DNA from: Desulfatitalea sp. BRH_c12
Lineage (GTDB): Bacteria > Desulfobacterota > Desulfobacteria > Desulfobacterales > Desulfosarcinaceae
Reading direction: 5' to 3'
NCBI GenBank assembly: GCA_000961655.1
Contig: LADR01000067.1
Span: forward strand, 62,001-126,000
Length of the DNA stretch: 64,000 nucleotides
The notes beneath the pieces were generated by a model that had not been told where the DNA came from, did no database searches, and worked only from the letters and a program-made list of their open reading frames with translations. Of this stretch, positions 11,985 through 38,067 are shown in pieces. Within the stretch, counting starts at the first letter, position 1, and every line of letters begins with the position of its first letter. Both the position numbers and the translations under genes were made by a program.

Positions 11985-13526
11985 CTACAGACTGCCCTGG
12001 GCTTTGTCCACGGGATGCGTTTTTAAATATTCCAATCGGTTAAGGCCATTAATGTAGGCCAGGGCGCTGGCCGTGATGATATCCGGATCGGATCCGCGCC
12101 CCAAGGCCACTAAACCGTTTTCCCTTAGACGCACGGTCACTTCGCCTTGTGCATCGGTGCCGCCGGTCAAGGCACTGATTGAAAACCGCAGCAGTTCGGA
12201 CTCGGCCCCGGTCAGTTTGGCGATGGTGTTGTAAGCCGCATCGATGGGCCCGTTGCCGTAGCCGGCGTCTTTTACGGAACGGCCATTGATCGAGAGCTGA
12301 ACGCTTGCCATGGGCAACACGGTCGTGCCGGCTGAGACGTGCAGGTACTCCAGTACGAAAGTTTCGGCGGTGCGCAGTACGCCTTCGGTGATAATCGCTT
12401 CCAAGTCTTCGTCCATGACCTGTTTCTTTTTATCCGCCAGGGCTTTAAACTTGGTGAAGACAATCTGCAGTTCGTCATCGGACAGGTCGTAGCCCAGGTT
12501 CTTAAGATGCTCGCGCAGGGCGTGGCGCCCGGAGTGCTTGCCCAGCACCATTTGTGTGGCGCTCAGGCCAATGGTTTCCGGCCGCATGATCTCGTATGTC
12601 ATGGGGTTCTTGAGCATGCCATCCTGATGGATGCCGGCTTCGTGGGCAAATGCATTGGCACCCACAACGGCTTTGTTGGGCTGGACCATGATGCCGGTGA
12701 TCATACTCACCAGGCGGCTGCTTGGATAAATGTGTTCGGTCCGGATATGGGTGCTCAGTGGCAGGTAATTGGCGCGGGTGTGCAGGGCCATGACCACCTC
12801 TTCCAGGGACGTGTTGCCGGCCCGCTCGCCGATCCCATTGATGGTGACCTCGGCCTGGCGTGCACCGGCCATCAGGGCGGCCAGGGTGTTGGCCGTGGCC
12901 AGCCCCAGATCGTTGTGGCAGTGTACGCTGAGCACGGCCTGGTGTATGTTGGGTGTGTGCTGGACAACATACCGGACCAATTCGGCGAATTCGCTTGGGA
13001 TGGCGTAGCCGACCGTGTCGGGCAGGTTGACCGTTGTGGCGCCAGCCGCGATGGCTGTTTCGAATACTTTGCACAGAAAATCGCGATCGCTGCGTGAGCC
13101 GTCTTCGGCCGAAAACTCCACATTGTCGGTGAAGGTTTTGGCGTAGGCGACCGCTGCCTTGGCTTCGGCCAGCACCTGCTCGCGAGTCATTCTGAGTTTA
13201 TACTCCATGTGGATGTCGGAAGTGGCGATAAACGTGTGAATGCGCGGTTTTGCCGCCAGCTTGATGGCGCCCCAGGCACTGTCGATGTCCTGTTTGTTGG
13301 CGCGCGCCAGGCCGGCCACTTCGCTGTGCTTGAGTTTGGCGGCGATTTGGGAGACCGCCTCGAAATCACCCTCGGAAGCGGCCGGAAAACCCGCTTCGAT
13401 GATGTCGACGCCCAGTTTTTCAAGCTGCATGGCCAGGCGCAGTTTTTCAGCGGTGTTCATGCTCGCGCCCGGCGACTGCTCGCCATCGCGCAAGGTGGTA
13501 TCGAAGATTTTTACGATGTCAGACAT
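11985..13526 (-). CDS. leuA: 2-isopropylmalate synthase
   Basis: This 513-residue enzyme condenses 2-oxoisovalerate with acetyl-CoA, the first committed step to leucine. The HMGL-like TIM barrel starts DTTLRDGEQSPG and has the metal-binding SVHCHNDLG. The C-terminal LeuA dimer/regulatory domain is complete (about 390-513), so leucine feedback is likely. The ATG at 13526 has GAGGA close upstream and matches family starts; the longer frame to 13631 does not. It is the last gene of the ilvD-ilvB-ilvN-ilvC-cimA-leuA series, but a 486-bp gap with repeats separates it from cimA, so it may also have its own promoter. Confidence 0.94.
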   Translation of the reverse strand: MSDIVKIFDTTLRDGEQSPGASMNTAEKLRLAMQLEKLGVDIIEAGFPAASEGDFEAVSQIAAKLKHSEVAGLARANKQDIDSAWGAIKLAAKPRIHTFIATSDIHMEYKLRMTREQVLAEAKAAVAYAKTFTDNVEFSAEDGSRSDRDFLCKVFETAIAAGATTVNLPDTVGYAIPSEFAELVRYVVQHTPNIHQAVLSVHCHNDLGLATANTLAALMAGARQAEVTINGIGERAGNTSLEEVVMALHTRANYLPLSTHIRTEHIYPSSRLVSMITGIMVQPNKAVVGANAFAHEAGIHQDGMLKNPMTYEIMRPETIGLSATQMVLGKHSGRHALREHLKNLGYDLSDDELQIVFTKFKALADKKKQVMDEDLEAIITEGVLRTAETFVLEYLHVSAGTTVLPMASVQLSINGRSVKDAGYGNGPIDAAYNTIAKLTGAESELLRFSISALTGGTDAQGEVTVRLRENGLVALGRGSDPDIITASALAYINGLNRLEYLKTHPVDKAQGSL

Positions 13527-14012
13527 TGTTCCTCGCATATTTTGTTGAGTCGTTGATTCGTGGATCGTTAATCTGTTCAAACGTCTATTCGTCGATGCAT
13601 GCCGAGCTGGACGAGGTAACAAATTAACCATTTCTGATTATCCACTTCGGTCAAGTGACATACGGGCGTGGTGAGGAAAACCCCCGGTGATCCGGGTGGG
13701 TAGTCCGCGCCACCATCCATTCGATTAAGTGAGGCTATAAGGTAGGCGCCGAATACACTTCGCCAATAGTCACTGGAGAAACTGGATAACCAAATAACGA
13801 TTTTACAATGACGCTATCATGTGAACGAGAAACAAAGCATGGGCCGCAGGGAAATAATCCCCGCGGCGTGAGATCCTACCTTCTCCATATAGTCCTCATA
13901 CGGTTTGTTGATTCGTTCATTAGTGAAGGCCCTGATGTTACGATTTGTTTTCTATACGGCAAAACGCGATGGTTGCTGATTTACCCATCCGACGAATGAC
14001 CCGATCGACGAA
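13527..14012. other. Gene-free gap within the BCAA cluster, containing repeats and a hairpin
   Basis: These 486 bases lie between cimA and leuA. They contain CGTTGATTCG-type repeats near 13552-13590, 13909-13925 and in inverted orientation at 13990-14027 (partly in the cimA 3' end), plus a copy of the dispersed hairpin repeat near 13686-13733. A stem-loop GCCGCAGGGA/TCCCCGCGGC (13843-13852 with 13858-13867, one mismatch) is also present. I looked for a leucine-rich leader peptide ahead of leuA on the minus strand and found none. The hairpin could reduce read-through into leuA. Confidence 0.6.
13686..13733. repeat. Dispersed intergenic hairpin repeat, copy 1
   Basis: The core CCGGGTGGGTAGTCCGCGCC followed by CATTCGATTAAGT matches the copy at 28147-28183 closely, and GCGCCACCAT matches the copy at 21241-21250. 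It is the most diverged in its flanks and shows no terminal inverted repeats. Confidence 0.6.
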
Positions 14013-15602
14013 TCAACGATTTAACAAATCCTTGCCCAGCTTAAACTGAAAGCTGTCGGCCAGCGCCTGCCAACTGGCTTCGATGATATCTTCAGAAACC
14101 CCGATGGTGCTCCAAAGGTTCTCGTGATCGCGTGATTCTATGAAGACGCGTACTTTGGCTTCGGTGCCGTCGCGGCCATCAATGACACGCACTTTGAAGT
14201 CCACCAAACGCATGCTCTGCAAATCGTCCGGGAAAAACTTGCCCAAGGCTTTGCGCAACGCGTTGTCCAAAGCGCTTACCGGACCGTGTCCTTCGGCAGC
14301 GGTAATTTCATGGACGCCGTCCACATCGATCTTGATGGTTGCATGGGCCTTGCAGGGCTGGTCCTTGTCCTTTTCGATGGTTACGCGAAACGACTCCAGA
14401 GTGAAAAGTGGCGTGAACTGTTCGGTAAATTTCTGCAGCAGAATCTTCATCGAGCCGTCTGCCACATCGAACTGATACCCCTGATCTTCAAGAGTTTTGA
14501 TCTCGGCGGCGATCTTCTGGCTGTCGTAACCATTTCCGCCGAGCTCGACCCCCAACTCCTTGGCTTTGTATATCACGTTGCTTTTCCCACCAAGGTCGGA
14601 AACCAGCACGCGTCGCTTGTTGCCCACCAGGGCCGGATCGATGTGTTCGTAGGCCCGGGGCACCTTCATGATAGCGTTAACGTGCAATCCGCCCTTATGC
14701 GCGAAAGCACTGCGCCCAACGAAGGGGCGCGTATTGAGTGGCACGATATTAGCCGTTTCACTGACAAAACGCGAAAGGCTTTTCAGCTGCGTCAGACGGG
14801 CATCGGGAATACTGGTCAGGCCCATTTTGAGGTTCAACAGCGGAATGATGGTAATCAGGTCGGCATTGCCGCAGCGTTCGCCATAGCCGTTTATCGTTCC
14901 TTGTACCAAGGTGACGCCGGCGCGCACAGCGGCGATGCTGTTGGCCACGGCCAAACCGCAGTCGTTGTGGGCATGGATGCCCAGGCGAGGAGTCAGGCCT
15001 TGCCCCGTCAAAGCAGTTTGGACCGCGTTGACGATGGCTTCGAGGTCGAAGGGCAGGGTGCCGCCATTGGTATCGCAGAGCACGAGTGTGTCGGCCCCGC
15101 TTTGCGCTGCCGCTGTCAGCGTCTGCAACGCATACCCCGCATCATCTTTGTAGCCATCAAAAAAATGTTCGGCGTCGTAAATGACCTCGCGGCCCTGACC
15201 TTTGAGCAGAGCCACGCTGTCGCGGATCATGGCCAGGTTCTCGTCCCGTGTGTTTTCCATGATCTGTTCGACATGCAAGACCCACGATTTTCCGACGATG
15301 GCCACCACCGGCGCTTGGCTGGTGATCAGCGCCTGCAGGTTGGTATCCTGGCATGCCGGCACATTGGGCTTGCGTGTCGATCCAAAAGCCGTAATGCGGG
15401 CATGAGTAAAGGTTTCCTTCTGGGCCAGCTCGAAAAAGCGCGCATCGCGCGCGTTGGAACCCGGCCAGCCACCTTCGATATAGTGGACGCCTGTCTGATC
15501 CAACTTTTTGGCGATTTTTATCATTTCGGCGGATGAAAAGTTGATATTTTCGCCCTGGCTTCCATCGCGCAGCGTGGTGTCGTAGATATACACCTGTACC
15601 AT
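14013..15602 (-). CDS. cimA: Citramalate synthase
   Basis: This 529-residue enzyme condenses pyruvate and acetyl-CoA to (R)-citramalate, the threonine-independent entry to isoleucine. It resembles LeuA but reads DTTLRDGSQGENINFS at the N-terminus and IHAHNDCGLAVANS at the metal site, both typical of the CimA branch. A C-terminal LeuA-type regulatory domain (about 395-529) is present. The ATG at 15602 has GAGGT seven bases upstream; an upstream extension to 15671 lacks family character. It follows ilvC by 117 bp containing an inverted repeat. Together with leuA and the ilv genes it completes the 2-oxoacid supply for Ile, Val and Leu. Confidence 0.92.
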   Translation of the reverse strand: MVQVYIYDTTLRDGSQGENINFSSAEMIKIAKKLDQTGVHYIEGGWPGSNARDARFFELAQKETFTHARITAFGSTRKPNVPACQDTNLQALITSQAPVVAIVGKSWVLHVEQIMENTRDENLAMIRDSVALLKGQGREVIYDAEHFFDGYKDDAGYALQTLTAAAQSGADTLVLCDTNGGTLPFDLEAIVNAVQTALTGQGLTPRLGIHAHNDCGLAVANSIAAVRAGVTLVQGTINGYGERCGNADLITIIPLLNLKMGLTSIPDARLTQLKSLSRFVSETANIVPLNTRPFVGRSAFAHKGGLHVNAIMKVPRAYEHIDPALVGNKRRVLVSDLGGKSNVIYKAKELGVELGGNGYDSQKIAAEIKTLEDQGYQFDVADGSMKILLQKFTEQFTPLFTLESFRVTIEKDKDQPCKAHATIKIDVDGVHEITAAEGHGPVSALDNALRKALGKFFPDDLQSMRLVDFKVRVIDGRDGTEAKVRVFIESRDHENLWSTIGVSEDIIEASWQALADSFQFKLGKDLLNR

Positions 15603-15651
15603 GATATCGACCTCTTCCCCGGGGCCTGCTGAAGATCCCTTGGACAATTGT

Positions 15652-15706
15652 ATTCTCACCACAGAGGTCACAGAGGGAAAAAAATCTCTGTGCCCTCTAT
15701 GAGAAT
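15652..15706. repeat. Inverted repeat between ilvC and cimA
   Basis: The left arm (15652-15675, ATTCTCA..CAGAGG.CACAGAG) is nearly complementary to the right arm (15686-15706). The ten-base loop is A-rich on the plus strand. CACAGAGG-type units occur in both arms, a kind of short intergenic repeat seen in many bacterial genomes. In the ilv mRNA it would form a long hairpin between two coding regions and could set mRNA stability or partial termination. Confidence 0.65.
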
Positions 15707-15719
15707 AGAGAATTCGGAC

Positions 15720-16775
15720 CTATTTGCCACGGTTTTCCGGGCGTAGACTGCGCACGGCGCGGCCGGCACGCCACATTTCGGAATTGCCGATAACCGTCAG
15801 TTCGGCATCCAATTTCTCACGATAATCCGGGGTGCTGTTGGCGGTCAGCACGCGGCGGGTCTCTGTACCGTCCTTAACGCTTTGGTACAGGGCATCGAAG
15901 ACCGGAACCACCGCCTCACGAAATTTAGGCGCCCAATCGAGTGCCCCACGCTGTGCCGTGGTGCTGCAATTGGCATACATCCAGTCCATGCCGTTTTCAG
16001 CCACCAACCGGATAAGGCTTTGGGTCAGTTCTTCGACTGTTTCATTGAAAGCTTCGCTGGGGCTGTGACCGTGTTTGCGCAGCAGGTTGTATTGGGCTTC
16101 CATGACGCCGGCCAGGCAGCCCATCAGCACGCCACGCTCGCCGGTCAGATCGCTATAGACTTCCTGTTCGAATGTGGTCGGGAAAAGGTAGCCCGAGCCG
16201 ATGGCGATGCCCACGGCCAGGGTACGCTCCTTGGCGCGGCCCGTGAAGTCCTGGAAAATGGCGTAGCTGGAATTGATGCCGCTGCCGTCCAGGAAGTTCA
16301 GGCGCACATTACGGCCGGAGCCTTTGGGTGCCACCAAAATCACATCCACGTTCTCCGGCGGAATGACTTTGGTCTGTTCTTTGTACACAATCGAGAAACC
16401 ATGTGAAAAGTACAGTGCATCGCCGGGGTTGAGACATTTTTTGAGGTCGTCCCAAACGGCCATCTGACCGGCATCCGAGAGCAGATATTGAATGATCGTG
16501 CCGCGTCGGGCGGCTTCTTCGACCGAGAAAAGCGTTTTGCCCGGTACGAAACCGTCGGCAATCGCTTTGTCCCAGCACTTTTTGTCCGCTTCCAACTGCC
16601 CAATGATGACCGGAAAGCCATTATCGCGCATATTCAGCGCCTGGGCAGGTCCCTGAACGCCGTATCCCAGAACCGCGATAGTTTCGTTGGCCAGAACCTG
16701 GCGCGCTTTTTCCAGCGTAAACTCTTCTGATGTGATGACGTCTTCCACTACTCCGCCGAAATCGATTTTTGCCAT
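15720..16775 (-). CDS. ilvC: Ketol-acid reductoisomerase, class I
   Basis: This 351-residue enzyme isomerises and reduces acetolactate and acetohydroxybutyrate. The Rossmann motif GYGVQG is at 38-43 and the knotted C-terminal domain is complete. The loop after the second beta strand reads IIGQLEADKKCW, where NADPH enzymes usually have Arg and Ser residues (as in GLRxGSxSW) that hold the 2'-phosphate. The Glu and Asp here suggest a preference for NADH; this is inference. The ATG at 16775 has AGGAGAGG upstream. It follows ilvN by 122 bp. Confidence 0.93.
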   Translation of the reverse strand: MAKIDFGGVVEDVITSEEFTLEKARQVLANETIAVLGYGVQGPAQALNMRDNGFPVIIGQLEADKKCWDKAIADGFVPGKTLFSVEEAARRGTIIQYLLSDAGQMAVWDDLKKCLNPGDALYFSHGFSIVYKEQTKVIPPENVDVILVAPKGSGRNVRLNFLDGSGINSSYAIFQDFTGRAKERTLAVGIAIGSGYLFPTTFEQEVYSDLTGERGVLMGCLAGVMEAQYNLLRKHGHSPSEAFNETVEELTQSLIRLVAENGMDWMYANCSTTAQRGALDWAPKFREAVVPVFDALYQSVKDGTETRRVLTANSTPDYREKLDAELTVIGNSEMWRAGRAVRSLRPENRGK

Positions 16776-16897
16776 TTTTCCTCTCCTTTGGATTGAATGC
16801 GATGGGCCGTATGGCCGCAACACGTTAAAGCATTAAACAGACCGGAAGCGCAAAAGACCGGTCGCTTTAGTGACCTGCCGGCAACGCCGTGCAGGGG

Positions 16898-17407
16898 TTA
16901 AATGCCGCGTTTGGGTTCCCTGAAAAGCGCCACAGTACCGGTGCGGGCGATCTTTTTGATGCCCATGGGGCGCAACAGCCCGATCAGGGCCTTCATTTTG
17001 TCTTCATCGCCGCTGGCCTCGATGGTGTAGCAATTGGAGGCCACATCGATGACCTTGGCGCGGAACAGATTGACCAAGCGCAGGATCTCATCCCGATTTT
17101 CAGGCCGGGCCTGCACACAGATCAGGGCCATTTCCCGACGCACCGAACTGTCGTCGGACATGTCGCGTAGCTTGATGACATTGATCAGTTTGCGCAGCTG
17201 CTTTTCGATCTGCTCCAGCAGCGGCTGGTTGGCCTGGGTGACGATGGTGATCCGCGACACTTTGGGATCCATGGTTTCCGCCACGCACAGGCTATCGATG
17301 TTGAAGCCGCGGCCGCTGAACAATCCCACCACCCGCGACAGGACACCCGGTTCGTTGTCCACCAGCATGGTCAAGGTGTGCTTTTCAGATTTCATAATTC
17401 TTTTCAT
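16898..17407 (-). CDS. ilvN: Acetolactate synthase small (regulatory) subunit
   Basis: This protein has about 169 residues. An N-terminal ACT domain (TLTMLVDNEPGVLSRVVGLF) binds valine for feedback inhibition, and a second ACT-like/C-terminal domain completes the family length. It pairs with IlvB, whose gene ends 77 bp upstream. Starts at 17407 (ATG), 17395 (ATG) and 17419 (GTG) are all possible and none has an ideal ribosome-binding site. Homology begins at about the 17395 Met. Confidence 0.92.
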   Translation of the reverse strand: MKRIMKSEKHTLTMLVDNEPGVLSRVVGLFSGRGFNIDSLCVAETMDPKVSRITIVTQANQPLLEQIEKQLRKLINVIKLRDMSDDSSVRREMALICVQARPENRDEILRLVNLFRAKVIDVASNCYTIEASGDEDKMKALIGLLRPMGIKKIARTGTVALFREPKRGI

Positions 17408-17484
17408 CCCTGCATCCACGGGTCGCGTCGCACGGATCTTGCGGCGAGCACCGCTTGATAAGTAATCACCGGTTCACGGCCCAA

Positions 17485-19173
17485 TCACACCAAGAGCATG
17501 TCCGTGATGGGTTTGCCGGCCGGCACCATGGGGTAGACGCACTCTTCGGATTCGACTACGAAATCCATGATGACCGGTCCTTTGATGGCCAAACCCCGTG
17601 CCAGCGTGGCTTCGACCTCATCCGGCCGTGTGGCGCGCAGGCCGTGCGCGCCAAAAGCCTCGGCCAGCTTGACGAAATCGGGAGCATGCTCGAAAAGGGT
17701 GTGAGCATAACGTTTGTCATAGAAAAGCTGCTGCCATTGGCGCACCATGCCCAGACAGCGATTGTTCAGAATCACCACCTTGACCGGCAATTTATACTGC
17801 ACGGCCGTGGCCATTTCCTGAATATTCATTTGGATGCTGCCATCTCCTGCGATATCCACGACCGTCTGTTCCGGATAAGCTACCTGGGCGCCGATGGCCG
17901 CAGGCAGTCCGAACCCCATGGTGCCCAGGCCGCCGGATGTCAGAAACTGCTGGGGGCGGTCGAAATGGTAAAATTGCGCCGACCACATCTGATTCTGTCC
18001 GACCTCGGTGGTGATAATGGCCTCGCCGCGGGTCAATTTATAAAGCTTTTCGATCACGTATTGCGGCTTGATCACCTCTGCGGTTTGCTCATAGGCCAGC
18101 TTGTGCTGTTTGCGCCATAAGAGGACCTGGTCCAGCCATTCCTGGCGCTGTTCGTCGGAGGCCACGAGACCTTCTTCGGTGATCATGCGGTTGAGCGCGA
18201 TCAGGCTCTGACGGCAATCGCCCACCACCGGTACCGCTACCGGAATGTTTTTGCGGATGGAGGTCGGGTCGATGTCGATGTGCACGATTTTGGCCTGGTC
18301 GGCAAAACAGTCGGTTTTGCCGGTTACCCGGTCATCGAAGCGTACTCCCACCGCAATCAGTAAATCGCAGTTGGAGATGGCCATATTCGCCCGATAGGTG
18401 CCGTGCATGCCCAGCATGCCCAGCCAGAGCGGGTCTGATCCTGGGAATGCCCCCAGGCCCATGAGCGAGGTGGTCACCGGTATCCGCAATGCGTGTGCCA
18501 AGGTGGACAATTCTTGGGAGGCTTTGGACAGGATCACGCCACCGCCGCCGAAAATGACTGGCCGCTTGGCGGTTTTCAACAGGGCCAAGGCCTTTCGGAT
18601 CTGCTTCATGTTGGGCAGATAGGTCGGATTATAGGATTTGATGCTGACCGGAGGAATCGGTTGGTAATCGGTTTTGGCCAACCCTAAGTTTTTGGGAATA
18701 TCGACCAGCACCGGCCCGGGCCGACCGCTACGGGCGATGAAGAAGGCCTCTTTGAGCGTTCGGGCCAGGTCTTGCACGCGGTTGACCAGATAGTTGTGTT
18801 TGGTGCATGGTCGCGTAATGCCGACAATATCGACCTCCTGAAAAGCATCATTGCCGATCAGGTGGGCGGATACCTGTCCCGTAACGATCACCATGGGAAT
18901 GGAATCCATGTAGGCTGTAGCAATGCCGGTCACGGTGTTGGTTGCCCCGGGTCCGGAGGTTACCAGGCAGACGCCGACCTTGCCGGAGGCCCGGGCGTAG
19001 CCATCAGCCGCGTGCACGGCTCCCTGCTCGTGTCGGACCAGGATGTGCCGCAGCTCGCTGCGAATCAGCTCATCGTACAGGTCGATGACGGCACCGCCGG
19101 GAAATCCAAATATGGTATCCACACCTTCTTCTTTCAGGATTTCCATTAAAATTTGTGCGCCGGTTAATTCCAT
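17485..19173 (-). CDS. ilvB: Acetolactate synthase large (catalytic) subunit
   Basis: This 562-residue ThDP/FAD enzyme makes acetolactate and acetohydroxybutyrate from pyruvate and 2-oxobutyrate. The catalytic Glu49 lies in VRHEQGAVHAADGYAR. The ThDP-binding GDGSIQMN...NN motif is near 440-470. Three domains (PYR, central FAD-binding, PP) are intact. The ATG at 19173 has AAGGGG nine bases upstream. It lies between ilvD (109 bp upstream) and ilvN. Confidence 0.95.
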   Translation of the reverse strand: MELTGAQILMEILKEEGVDTIFGFPGGAVIDLYDELIRSELRHILVRHEQGAVHAADGYARASGKVGVCLVTSGPGATNTVTGIATAYMDSIPMVIVTGQVSAHLIGNDAFQEVDIVGITRPCTKHNYLVNRVQDLARTLKEAFFIARSGRPGPVLVDIPKNLGLAKTDYQPIPPVSIKSYNPTYLPNMKQIRKALALLKTAKRPVIFGGGGVILSKASQELSTLAHALRIPVTTSLMGLGAFPGSDPLWLGMLGMHGTYRANMAISNCDLLIAVGVRFDDRVTGKTDCFADQAKIVHIDIDPTSIRKNIPVAVPVVGDCRQSLIALNRMITEEGLVASDEQRQEWLDQVLLWRKQHKLAYEQTAEVIKPQYVIEKLYKLTRGEAIITTEVGQNQMWSAQFYHFDRPQQFLTSGGLGTMGFGLPAAIGAQVAYPEQTVVDIAGDGSIQMNIQEMATAVQYKLPVKVVILNNRCLGMVRQWQQLFYDKRYAHTLFEHAPDFVKLAEAFGAHGLRATRPDEVEATLARGLAIKGPVIMDFVVESEECVYPMVPAGKPITDMLLV

Positions 19174-19282: not shown

Positions 19283-20953
19283 CTATTTGACGACCGCGCC
19301 GCTGTCGGCCGAGCCGACCAGCCGCGCATAACGTGCCAGGTACCCATGTTTAATTTTGGGCTCCGGCGGCTGCCACTGGCTGCGTCGTTGGTTCAGTTGG
19401 GCTTCGTCAACCTTGAGCGCGATCGTTTTGGCCGAGATGTCGATAGCGATGATGTCGCCATCGTGGACCAAAGCAATCGGACCGCCCTGGGCGGCTTCAG
19501 GCGAAATATGGCCAATGGCCGCGCCGCGCGTGCCGCCCGAGAACCGGCCATCGGTCAGCAGGGCAACCTCGCCATCGAGCTGCATGCCGGCAATGGCCGA
19601 AGTGGGGGTGAGCATTTCGCGCATGCCCGGACCGCCCTTGGGCCCTTCGTAGCGGACTACCACGACATCACCCGCCTGAATACTGCCTTGCATGATGGCG
19701 GCTGTGGCAGCATCTTCAGAGTCGAACACCCGCGCCGGGCCTTCGTGGCGCATCATCTCGGGGCGGACCGCGCTCTGCTTGACCACGCACCCATCCGGCG
19801 CCAGATTGCCGAACAGAACCGCCAATCCCCCCTGGGCATGGTACGCTTTGTCCAGTGAACGGATCACATCCGAGTCCTTGGTCCGGGCGTTGGCGATGTT
19901 CGCGCCTACCGTTTGCGCAGTAACTGTCATGCAGTTCACGTCAATGAAACCACCTTTGACCAGTTCCAGTAAAACCGCCTGGATACCGCCGGCGCGATCT
20001 AGGTCTTCGATATGGTGGGCCCCGCCAGGACTCAGTGAGCACAGGTGAGGTGTTTTCTGGCTGATGGTGTTGATTTCTTTGAGTTCGAATGGCACTCCGG
20101 CCTCATGCGCGATGGCAGCCAGGTGCAGTGTGGTGTTGGTCGAGCATCCCAGGGCCATATCGACGGCCAGGGCGTTGGCGAAGGCCTGCGGGGTCAGGAT
20201 GCGACTTGGCGTGATCTGTTCCTGCCACAGGGTCATGATCTGCATGCCGGCCTGTTTGGCCAGGCGCGTGCGCGCAGCCATCACCGCAGGGATAGTGCCG
20301 TTGCCCGGCAATCCCATGCCGATGGCCTCGGTCAGGCAGTTCATCGAATTGGCCGTGAACATGCCGGCGCACGATCCGCAGGTCGGACAGGCGGCCTCCT
20401 CGATATCGGCCAGCTGCGCTTCGTTCATGCGGCCTGATTTGACAGCGCCCACCGCCTCGAAGACGGTGATCAAGTCAATTCGGGGACCATTGGGGTCATT
20501 GGGACTGCGCCCGGCCAGCATCGGACCGCCGCTGATGAAGATCGTCGGCAAATCCAGGCGTGCCGCCGCCATCAGCATGCCCGGCACGATCTTGTCGCAA
20601 TTGGGAATCATCACCATTGCGTCCAGGCCGTGGGCCCGGGCCACAATTTCCACCGAATCGGCGATCACTTCACGACTGGCCAGCGAGTACTTCATGCCTT
20701 CGTGGTTCATGGCGATGCCGTCGCACACGCCAATGACCCCGAACTCCACAGGTGTTCCACCGGCCATGTAAATGCCGGCTTTGACCGCTTCGGCCAGGGT
20801 ATTGAGGTGCACATGCCCCGGAATGATGGTGTTGGCGGAGTTGGCTATGCCGATAAGAGGGCGTCGAATTTCAGCATCGCTGTACCCGCAGGCTTTCAGC
20901 AGGGCACGATGAGGTGCGCGTTCCACACCTTGTTTGACTTGATTGCTTTTCAT
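19283..20953 (-). CDS. ilvD: Dihydroxy-acid dehydratase
   Basis: This 556-residue Fe-S dehydratase forms 2-oxoisovalerate and 2-oxo-3-methylvalerate. Cluster-binding cysteines are seen in [10 protein letters not shown] and [18 protein letters not shown], with [11 protein letters not shown] nearby. The ATG at 20953 has AAAGGA six bases upstream; the ATG at 20959 is too close to that site. It is the first structural gene of the operon and lies 17 bases after the attenuator U-tract, so its expression should depend on the leader peptide. Confidence 0.95.
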
Positions 20954-20970
20954 GCGCATTCCTTTCTTCC

Positions 20971-21015
20971 AAAAAAAAATCCGTTATCAGCCAGATGGGG
21001 CCGATAACGGATTTT
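20971..21015 (-). terminator. Attenuator: intrinsic terminator ahead of ilvD
   Basis: On the minus strand AAAATCCGTTATC (21015-21003) pairs with GATAACGGATTTT (20988-20976). The stem continues by four more pairs (one G-U) to a six-base loop, giving about 17 bp, and nine U residues follow. This is a very strong terminator placed between the leader peptide and ilvD. Its 5' arm (CCGTTATCG, 21010-21002) can alternatively pair with CGATAATGG (21050-21042) at the end of the leader peptide frame, nine pairs with one G-U. That makes a mutually exclusive antiterminator. Confidence 0.93.
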
Positions 21016-21036
21016 GTGTTTCACCGGGGTGCTGCT

Positions 21037-21126
21037 TTAAACCATTATCGTCCCCTTGACCCGGAGTCTAATAATGACACCGAGTACGAGAATAAGGTTG
21101 ACGATGTGTACGATGTAACTCTTCAT
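21037..21126 (-). CDS. ilvL: BCAA leader peptide (29 aa) of the ilv attenuator
   Basis: The frame begins MKSYIVHIVNLILVLGVII and ends RLRVKGTIMV. Sixteen of 29 residues are Ile (6), Val (6) or Leu (4). CAGGTG lies nine bases before the ATG. Stalling within the Ile/Val/Leu codons would leave the last codons (21042-21050) free to pair with the 5' arm of the downstream terminator, allowing read-through. A ribosome reaching the stop at 21037-21039 would cover that segment, so the terminator forms. This is the logic of enteric ilv/leu attenuation. The peptide is too short for routine gene calling. The symbol is by analogy. Confidence 0.9.
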   Translation of the reverse strand: MKSYIVHIVNLILVLGVIIRLRVKGTIMV

Positions 21127-21155
21127 GATGGCAATCACCTGAATAATTTAGCCGG

Positions 21156-21184
21156 TCTTTAGCAGCAAGATATTGGAGTGTCAA
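21156..21184 (-). promoter_or_regulatory. Sigma70-type promoter of the ilv operon
   Basis: On the minus strand a perfect TTGACA (21184-21179) is followed after 17 bases by TAAAGA (21161-21156) as a weak -10. Transcription would start near 21149, about 23 bases before the leader peptide ATG. Confidence 0.65.
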
Positions 21185-35839: not shown

Positions 35840-35912
35840 GGGCCCATAGCTCAGTTGGTAGAGCCACCGGCTCATAACCGGTCGGTCCCTGGTTCGACCC
35901 CAGGTGGGCCCA
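35840..35912 (+). tRNA. tRNA with anticodon CAT (Met, or Ile2 if lysidine-modified)
   Basis: The 73-base cloverleaf: acceptor GGGCCCA/TGGGCCC, D arm GCTC...GAGC, anticodon stem ACCGG/CCGGT with loop CTCATAA (anticodon CAT), T arm CCTGG-TTCGACC-CCAGG. The 3' CCA is not encoded. The CTCATAA loop and acceptor do not fit an initiator tRNA. Elongator Met and Ile2 (converted by TilS) cannot be told apart by eye. Confidence 0.9.

Positions 35913-37689: not shown

Positions 37690-38067
<378 letters not shown>

Follow-up and report, generated by a model that had tools for sequence, protein, structure and literature searches.

The ilv and leu leader attenuators of enteric bacteria encode a short peptide with many residues of the product amino acids, form an antiterminator and a terminator that exclude each other, place the stop codon where the ribosome masks the antiterminator arm, and use uncommon Leu codons. 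In many ribosome-mediated attenuators, an untranslated leader lets segment 1 of the RNA pair with segment 2. T-box, riboswitch, and RNA-binding antiterminator mechanisms likewise use alternative terminator and antiterminator folds. The enteric ilvGMEDA, ilvBN, and leu leaders are named as known attenuators in the available part of PMC1183508. The Corynebacterium ilvB-II and ilvB-OMG motifs, as described in an excerpt of PMC10272879, have an upstream open reading frame (uORF) rich in branched-chain codons over a hairpin, and one arm of the ilvB-II terminator has the P1 region as an alternative partner. Predicted leaders of actinobacterial ilvB genes have runs of Ile, Val, and Leu codons over a terminator; the available part of PMC1262725 calls their mode of regulation unclear and reports that changing the candidate control codons before ilvB in Streptomyces coelicolor had no effect, a result that advises caution in any codon-based reading of a leader. 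The main text of a broad survey of premature terminators contains none of the words ilv, Desulf-, and deltaproteobacteria (PMC2965389).

We analyzed 64,000 nucleotides of DNA (the window) from Desulfatitalea sp. BRH_c12 and found an element that spans positions 21184-20971 of the minus strand, ahead of ilvD-ilvB-ilvN-ilvC-cimA-leuA. Ribosome-mediated attenuation is already known as a mechanism, and the element is very probably a further case of that kind; an earlier note on this DNA had likened its logic to that of enteric ilvGMEDA and leu attenuation, and the parts and predicted mechanism agree with this. Like the enteric ilv and leu leaders, it has product codons in the leader, exclusive folds, a stop codon positioned to mask the antiterminator arm, and uncommon Leu codons. 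Unlike them, it precedes a different first gene and a different gene order that includes cimA and leuA, its antiterminator arm is encoded by the last leader codons (or holds the stop codon), a conserved hairpin lies inside the leader, and the element as a whole has no match in Rfam. It shares with ilvB-II and ilvB-OMG the branched-chain-codon uORF over a hairpin, and with ilvB-II also the alternative pairing of a terminator arm; compared by description alone, in the part of the source available, those motifs differ in lying upstream of ilvB, with ilvB-II confined to Corynebacterium. The Ile, Val, and Leu codon runs over a terminator recall the actinobacterial ilvB leaders as far as the source at hand describes them, whereas an antiterminator and covariation are seen in the Desulfobacterales element. 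Among the open-licence papers listed in our searches, no title or abstract opening describes such an element, and single members may already have been predicted in subscription papers on proteobacterial attenuators. We consider the match between leader codons and operon content, described below, to be the most interesting part of the finding.

The element and its operon in Desulfatitalea

The promoter, leader, and terminator that the earlier note had described were all recovered (Table 1). The two promoter hexamers are separated by 17 nt, and TG directly precedes the second. A strict promoter scan, whose rule needs T as the sixth base of the second hexamer, called no promoter at the leader. 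For the -35 comparison, 20 of the 69 leader sequences described below were printed and one, cut by a contig end, was left out; TTGAC was at the matching place in 19/19 sequences (the window and 18 relatives), as TTGACA in 12 and TTGACT in 7. By eye, the -10 counterparts in members of the genus (TGTTGTTAAAGA/TTAAACA) are similar to TAAAGA. The leader peptide is MKSYIVHIVNLILVLGVIIRLRVKGTIMV. When the 348 ATG-started open reading frames of 20-50 codons from the two strands of the window are compared, that of the leader has the largest share of Ile, Leu, and Val; it contains no CTG and no GTG codons.

Table 1. Positions of the proposed attenuator parts and downstream genes in the window
Feature	Position	Strand	Basis
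-35 element TTGACA, leader promoter	21179-21184	-	sequence
-10 element TAAAGA, with TG directly before it (extended -10)	21156-21161	-	sequence
Leader peptide ORF, 29 codons, 16 Ile/Leu/Val	21037-21126	-	ORF list; conservation in relatives
Region 1, candidate anti-antiterminator arm, weak (6 + 3 pairs around an internal loop)	21095-21106	-	relatives
P1 hairpin within the leader ORF, 9 pairs, 7-nt loop	21059-21085	-	codon shuffles; covariation
Region 2, antiterminator 5' arm GGGGACGATAATGG, end of the leader ORF	21042-21055	-	pairing; covariation
Region 3, common to antiterminator and terminator, CCGTTATCGGCCCC	20997-21010	-	pairing; covariation
Region 4, terminator 3' arm	20979-20992	-	terminator scan; alignment
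Intrinsic terminator hairpin, 17 pairs, 6-nt loop	20976-21015	-	terminator scan; alignment
U tract, nine T	20971-20979	-	sequence
ilvD, first structural gene	19283-20953	-	TIGR00110 and NF002068 above cut-off; start by conservation in relatives
ilvB	17485-19173	-	TIGR00118
ilvN/ilvH	16898-17419	-	TIGR00119
ilvC	15720-16823	-	TIGR00465
cimA, citramalate synthase	14013-15671	-	TIGR00977
leuA	11985-13631	-	NF002086, TIGR00973

The element belongs to the ilvD operon, since its upstream neighbor, a gene for a DUF3187 protein, is on the opposite strand. Profile matches identified the six genes, of which ilvD comes first. Judging from conservation, the ilvD start is probably the ATG at 20953 and not the mechanical ORF start at 20959. 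We take the genes together to serve synthesis of Val, of Ile from pyruvate via citramalate, and the first step toward Leu. The ilvC product passes TIGR00465 and falls under the cut-off of three other IlvC models listed; it may be a divergent ketol-acid reductoisomerase. The host genome (6.0 Mb) is from the family Desulfosarcinaceae in the order Desulfobacterales, and the guess of Desulfobacterota in the earlier note was right: the nearest named relatives by IlvD are Desulfatitalea, Desulfobacterales.

The end of the leader can pair extensively with the 5' arm of the terminator. Regions 2 and 3 form 13 pairs with one A/G mismatch (-20.3 kcal/mol). When the codons of the leader were shuffled, 3 of 2000 versions attained this energy, as did 14 of 1422 90-nt blocks taken from the window. 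The nine-base pairing proposed earlier therefore exists and was drawn too short, as it really extends to 13 pairs over 14 positions. A region of 180 nt that contains the element folds better than 200/200 shuffles (z -4.5), with the terminator accounting for much of this.

Two further structures had been missed in the earlier account: the hairpin P1 within the leader (z -2.98 against codon shuffles in the window) and, in relatives, an anti-antiterminator segment (region 1) that pairs with region 2. For the window itself the region 1:2 pairing was no better than chance (z +0.31 against codon shuffles), and we dropped a four-segment model for its own element.

Conservation and covariation among relatives

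We collected 130 ilvD loci (30 + 80 + 20), which gave 117 distinct upstream regions. A region-3 motif was near the gene in 72 of them (one further duplicate was dropped), and removal of a terminator without a leader (L059) and two chance matches (L096 and L097) left 69 leaders, the window's included. In the near group, made up of loci numbered under 72 or over 109, 69 of the 78 distinct upstream regions contain the element. The nine near-group regions without it are L059, which keeps just the terminator, L068, which is cut by a contig end, and L066, L070, L071, L112, L123, L127, and L130. An automatic terminator search, which missed or misplaced a few hairpins at other loci (L002 and L044, for example), found no elements at the more distant loci L072-L109.

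The leaders have similar lengths, compositions, and stop positions. We took as the leader the frame richest in Ile, Leu, and Val with a stop codon -12 to +60 nt from region 2, and as region 2 the best complement of region 3, with five region-2 anchors corrected by hand, so the match across relatives is partly by construction. All 69 distinct leaders have 25-33 codons, of which 34-63% are for Ile, Leu, or Val; each of these three amino acids occurs at least twice, and ATG is the start codon in 68. In 69/69, the stop falls -10 to +15 nt from the region-2 core. The leaders end in one frame in 44 cases, in another in 24 (the window's among these), and in a third in one (L051); the RNA arm stays in place as the reading frame shifts. 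The stop codon lies inside region 2 in 42/69 leaders; the view that the antiterminator arm is within the leader ORF thus describes the window and has to be widened for relatives. In 18 of the 44 shorter-frame leaders (L058, L046, and others), a mini-ORF of ATG, GCN, and a stop codon overlaps the end of region 2. It may be a relic of the longer frame or, alternatively, a site of reinitiation.

Codon choice in the leaders differs from that in the genes that follow. CTG makes up 7% of leader Leu codons versus 44% in the ilvD genes, and CTA 12% versus 2%. The RNA structure could explain part of this bias.

The pairings are supported by covariation. The alignment contained 30 sequences picked by hand from 47 diverse ones (69 in all); several with unusual spacing were excluded, and P1 was drawn from one row (L019). 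The shuffle controls used on it leave relatedness among the 30 sequences in place. For P1 and region 2:3 together, 85.9% of cells were paired versus 80.4% after shuffling (0 of 500 shuffles as high) and 28-57% in slid versions, and in 12 of 24 pairs both partners vary. For the terminator (regions 3 and 4), 95.7% of cells were paired versus 90.3% after shuffling, and 5 of 14 pairs change on both sides. One pair in 2:3 is U-G in 27/30 sequences and the same place in the terminator is G-C in 30/30, such that the antiterminator would stay the weaker of the two. Alignment with relatives was one of the tests that the earlier note had named, and its reading came through: the Ile/Leu/Val-rich leader is kept in 69/69, both helices are kept, and pairs change on both sides.

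P1 and region 1:2 were also compared with codon shuffles. For P1 in the 69 leaders the mean z was -2.49, with 64 below 0 and 46 at p<0.05. For region 1:2 it was -1.32, with 56 of 69 below 0 and 21 at p<0.05. Another 29 leaders, of which 26 come from outside the order and two lie ahead of genes unrelated to branched-chain synthesis, gave a mean z of -2.05 for region 1:2, with 28 below 0; this mean includes L161, L173, and L202, in which the automatic region 2 is wrong or doubtful. In L150 and L156, region 1:2 changes on both sides with pairing preserved.

Predicted switching and alternative readings

Formation of the antiterminator depends on ribosome position in a folding model. Each RNA was folded through region 3, leaving out all nucleotides upstream of the leading edge of the ribosome. 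When the A site was placed in the control region, a mean of 12.2 region 2:3 pairs was expected, and at least 6 in 69/69 leaders. With the A site at the stop codon, the mean was 0.02 and the value was below 1 in 69/69, in agreement with the earlier proposal that a ribosome there covers the antiterminator arm. The companion proposal, that stalling at Ile, Leu, or Val codons frees the arm, held in the model for 13 of the 16 codons (codons 5-21, with at least 8 pairs left) and failed for the last three. Modelled without a ribosome, 42/69 leaders still formed at least 6 of these pairs, including the window's (12.8).

We infer use of the promoter, translation of the leader, stalling, termination, and a response to starvation as follows. 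RNA polymerase would initiate at the TTGACA promoter, with a ribosome trailing along the leader. If Ile-, Leu-, or Val-tRNA were scarce, the ribosome would stall in control codons 5-21, region 2 would be free to pair with region 3 once that is transcribed, and region 4 would be left without a partner, such that polymerase would continue into ilvD-ilvBN-ilvC-cimA-leuA. If Ile, Leu, and Val were plentiful, the ribosome would reach the stop codon and cover region 2, region 3 would pair with region 4, and transcription would end at the U tract. Most relatives have a region 1 toward the beginning of the leader that could hold region 2 when there is no ribosome. Because region 1 of the window looks weak, its untranslated leader should tend toward read-through. 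P1 would act as a polymerase-pausing or spacing hairpin.

Based on the product-codon-rich leader, the intrinsic terminator, the antiterminator that shares an arm with it, and the modelled switching between stall and stop, we believe, with a probability of about 0.9, that the element is a ribosome-mediated transcription attenuator sensing Ile, Leu, and Val. We rejected a bare terminator, as the leader, region 2, and the stop position are all conserved. A small functional protein followed by an ordinary, uncoupled terminator would suit the hydrophobic character of the leader peptide and its partial conservation in close relatives. However, the leaders end in two frames (once in a third), always within the same short distance of region 2, regions 2:3 and P1 covary, the leader codons vary between operons with gene content, and the common Leu codon CTG is avoided, and we regard such a protein as very unlikely.

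The RNA might instead be recognized by a protein or a tRNA, as in T-box, riboswitch, or RNA-binding antiterminator systems, with the ORF incidental; alternative terminator and antiterminator folds are typical of all such mechanisms. We give this little credence, because leaders rich in Ile, Leu, and Val are found in 69/69 and no Rfam family was above threshold at the site or at 10 related loci; a search with the element alone gave three matches, all far below threshold. Across the whole 64-kb window, Rfam matched just two RNAs, both away from the element: a bacterial class A RNase P RNA (37694-38067, plus strand) and a tRNA gene (35840-35912, plus strand). Leader-translation attenuation could also be general, responding to slow translation or coupled to growth and not specific to branched-chain amino acids, and the ribosome-free RNA of the window, which already favors the antiterminator in the folding model, would suit this. 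Such a general switch is improbable, since the codons tend to fit the pathway: mostly Ile before cimA alone, Ile and Leu before cimA-leuA, Ile, Leu, and Val before ilvD operons, and Phe, Tyr, and Trp before aromatic genes.

Leader codons, operon content, and distribution

The number of Leu codons in cimA leaders was related to the presence of leuA. We read 54 cimA loci (14 via model matches and 40 via a CimA search, not a random draw), of which 25 had scorable leaders and one was cut by a contig end (L205); the other 28 had no leader within 420 nt, 25 of these being less similar cimA genes. There were 6-12 Leu codons with leuA adjoining (n=11) and 0-6 without leuA in the stretch read (n=14; one-sided rank p 1.3e-5, kinship uncorrected). 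For L208, the leader scored was the one adjoining a terminator. Two families hold both states: f121 has 6-12 Leu codons with leuA and 4 without, and f106 has 9-11 with and 5-6 without.

In the home order we read 20 stretches, partly chosen for high or low Leu, comprising 19 ilvD operons and one LeuA-like locus. Sixteen of the ilvD operons have leuA (2-8 Leu codons) and three do not (2-3 Leu codons; one-sided p 0.009). The match between codons and operon clusters by family, and the p-values are not from independent events. There are exceptions: G056 has leuA and yet two Leu codons in its leader, and 4-6 Leu codons remain in the leaders of G503, G545, and G370, with no leuA close by. The multivalent switch suggested in the earlier note gains support, since leader codons follow operon content, with these exceptions.

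In two genomes of family f35 (G155 and G293), the ilvD operon is without leuA and its leader has two Leu codons; in the four f35 genomes that were read, a LeuA-like gene is preceded by a leader of its own, with 6-10. At L250, L251, L252, and L254, a Leu-rich leader precedes a LeuA-like gene whose product is about 31% identical to the window's LeuA, and the leader points to a role of the gene in leucine synthesis; the ilvD operon, read in two of the four genomes, is without leuA. The L252 product is below NCBIfam cut-offs. The LeuA-like genes are perhaps those for isopropylmalate synthase there.

Matches to the element are common among sulfate-reducing relatives. A covariance model built from the 30 aligned sequences matched 253 of 291 genomes of Desulfobacterales, five of these only at E above 1e-6 and at least one (G170) at a site where no leader was seen. 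It found one site in the genome of the window; the sole other match there, rejected as a second site, was the opposite strand of the same terminator palindrome. In a search of the phylum, 46 of 395 genomes had matches; the 31 outside the order were weaker (best E 4.8e-11 to 3.3e-4). Of 30 outside-order matches read, 27 precede cimA (18), ilvB (5), leuA (3), or ilvD (1); the others are L177, a bare terminator-like match, and L170 and L181, before other genes. Among 28 matches read in 16 chosen genomes, 21 were before ilvD, ilvB, cimA, or a LeuA-like gene, two before aromatic genes, and five before none of these (L244, with a leader; L255, at a contig end; and L256, L267, and L270, apparently terminators). 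The specificity of the model is incomplete: on reading, the matches in G170 and G442 and a second match in G144 resembled terminators lacking an Ile/Leu/Val leader.

We lean toward the view that one modular attenuator family (1-P1-2-3-4) is the usual switch for branched-chain synthesis in much of Desulfobacterota, placed before whichever gene leads the operon, with control codons re-cut as genes join or leave, such that leader composition predicts the end products. If so, a leader in which Ile, Leu, and Val all occur would work as an OR gate for the three amino acids. For a group of anaerobes in which the literature searched describes no leader-peptide control, the element provides a probable operon switch that is conserved and easily tested. 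The link between leader codons and operon content amounts to a natural experiment on attenuation by leader peptides, and it could aid the prediction of gene function.

Leaders of similar design were also found before other genes. In G603 (L170), an Ile/Leu-rich leader of the same design precedes an acyl-CoA dehydrogenase-like gene (best profile match of the product acryloyl-CoA reductase, below cut-off), possibly a further regulated gene. Phe/Tyr-rich leaders, one with Trp, precede a shikimate-kinase-like gene at L181 (G439; product below the NCBIfam cut-off) and L257 (G411), in a similar attenuator design. Desulfobacterales have an aromatic version, with Phe/Tyr/Trp-rich leaders (e.g., MAHNFSSNFFNYYWYYFFSTGLPGVR; L269, L272-L280, and L288) followed, by eye, by apparently two terminators in a row. 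Nine more distant homologues of 2-amino-3,7-dideoxyheptulosonate synthase that were scanned had no Phe/Tyr/Trp leader, and the window's own genome had no match to this enzyme at E 1e-20. The aromatic leader was before the gene for this enzyme (TIGR01949, tested on L269) at 11/11 loci of at least 70% identity, L269 included, and may sense all three aromatic amino acids.
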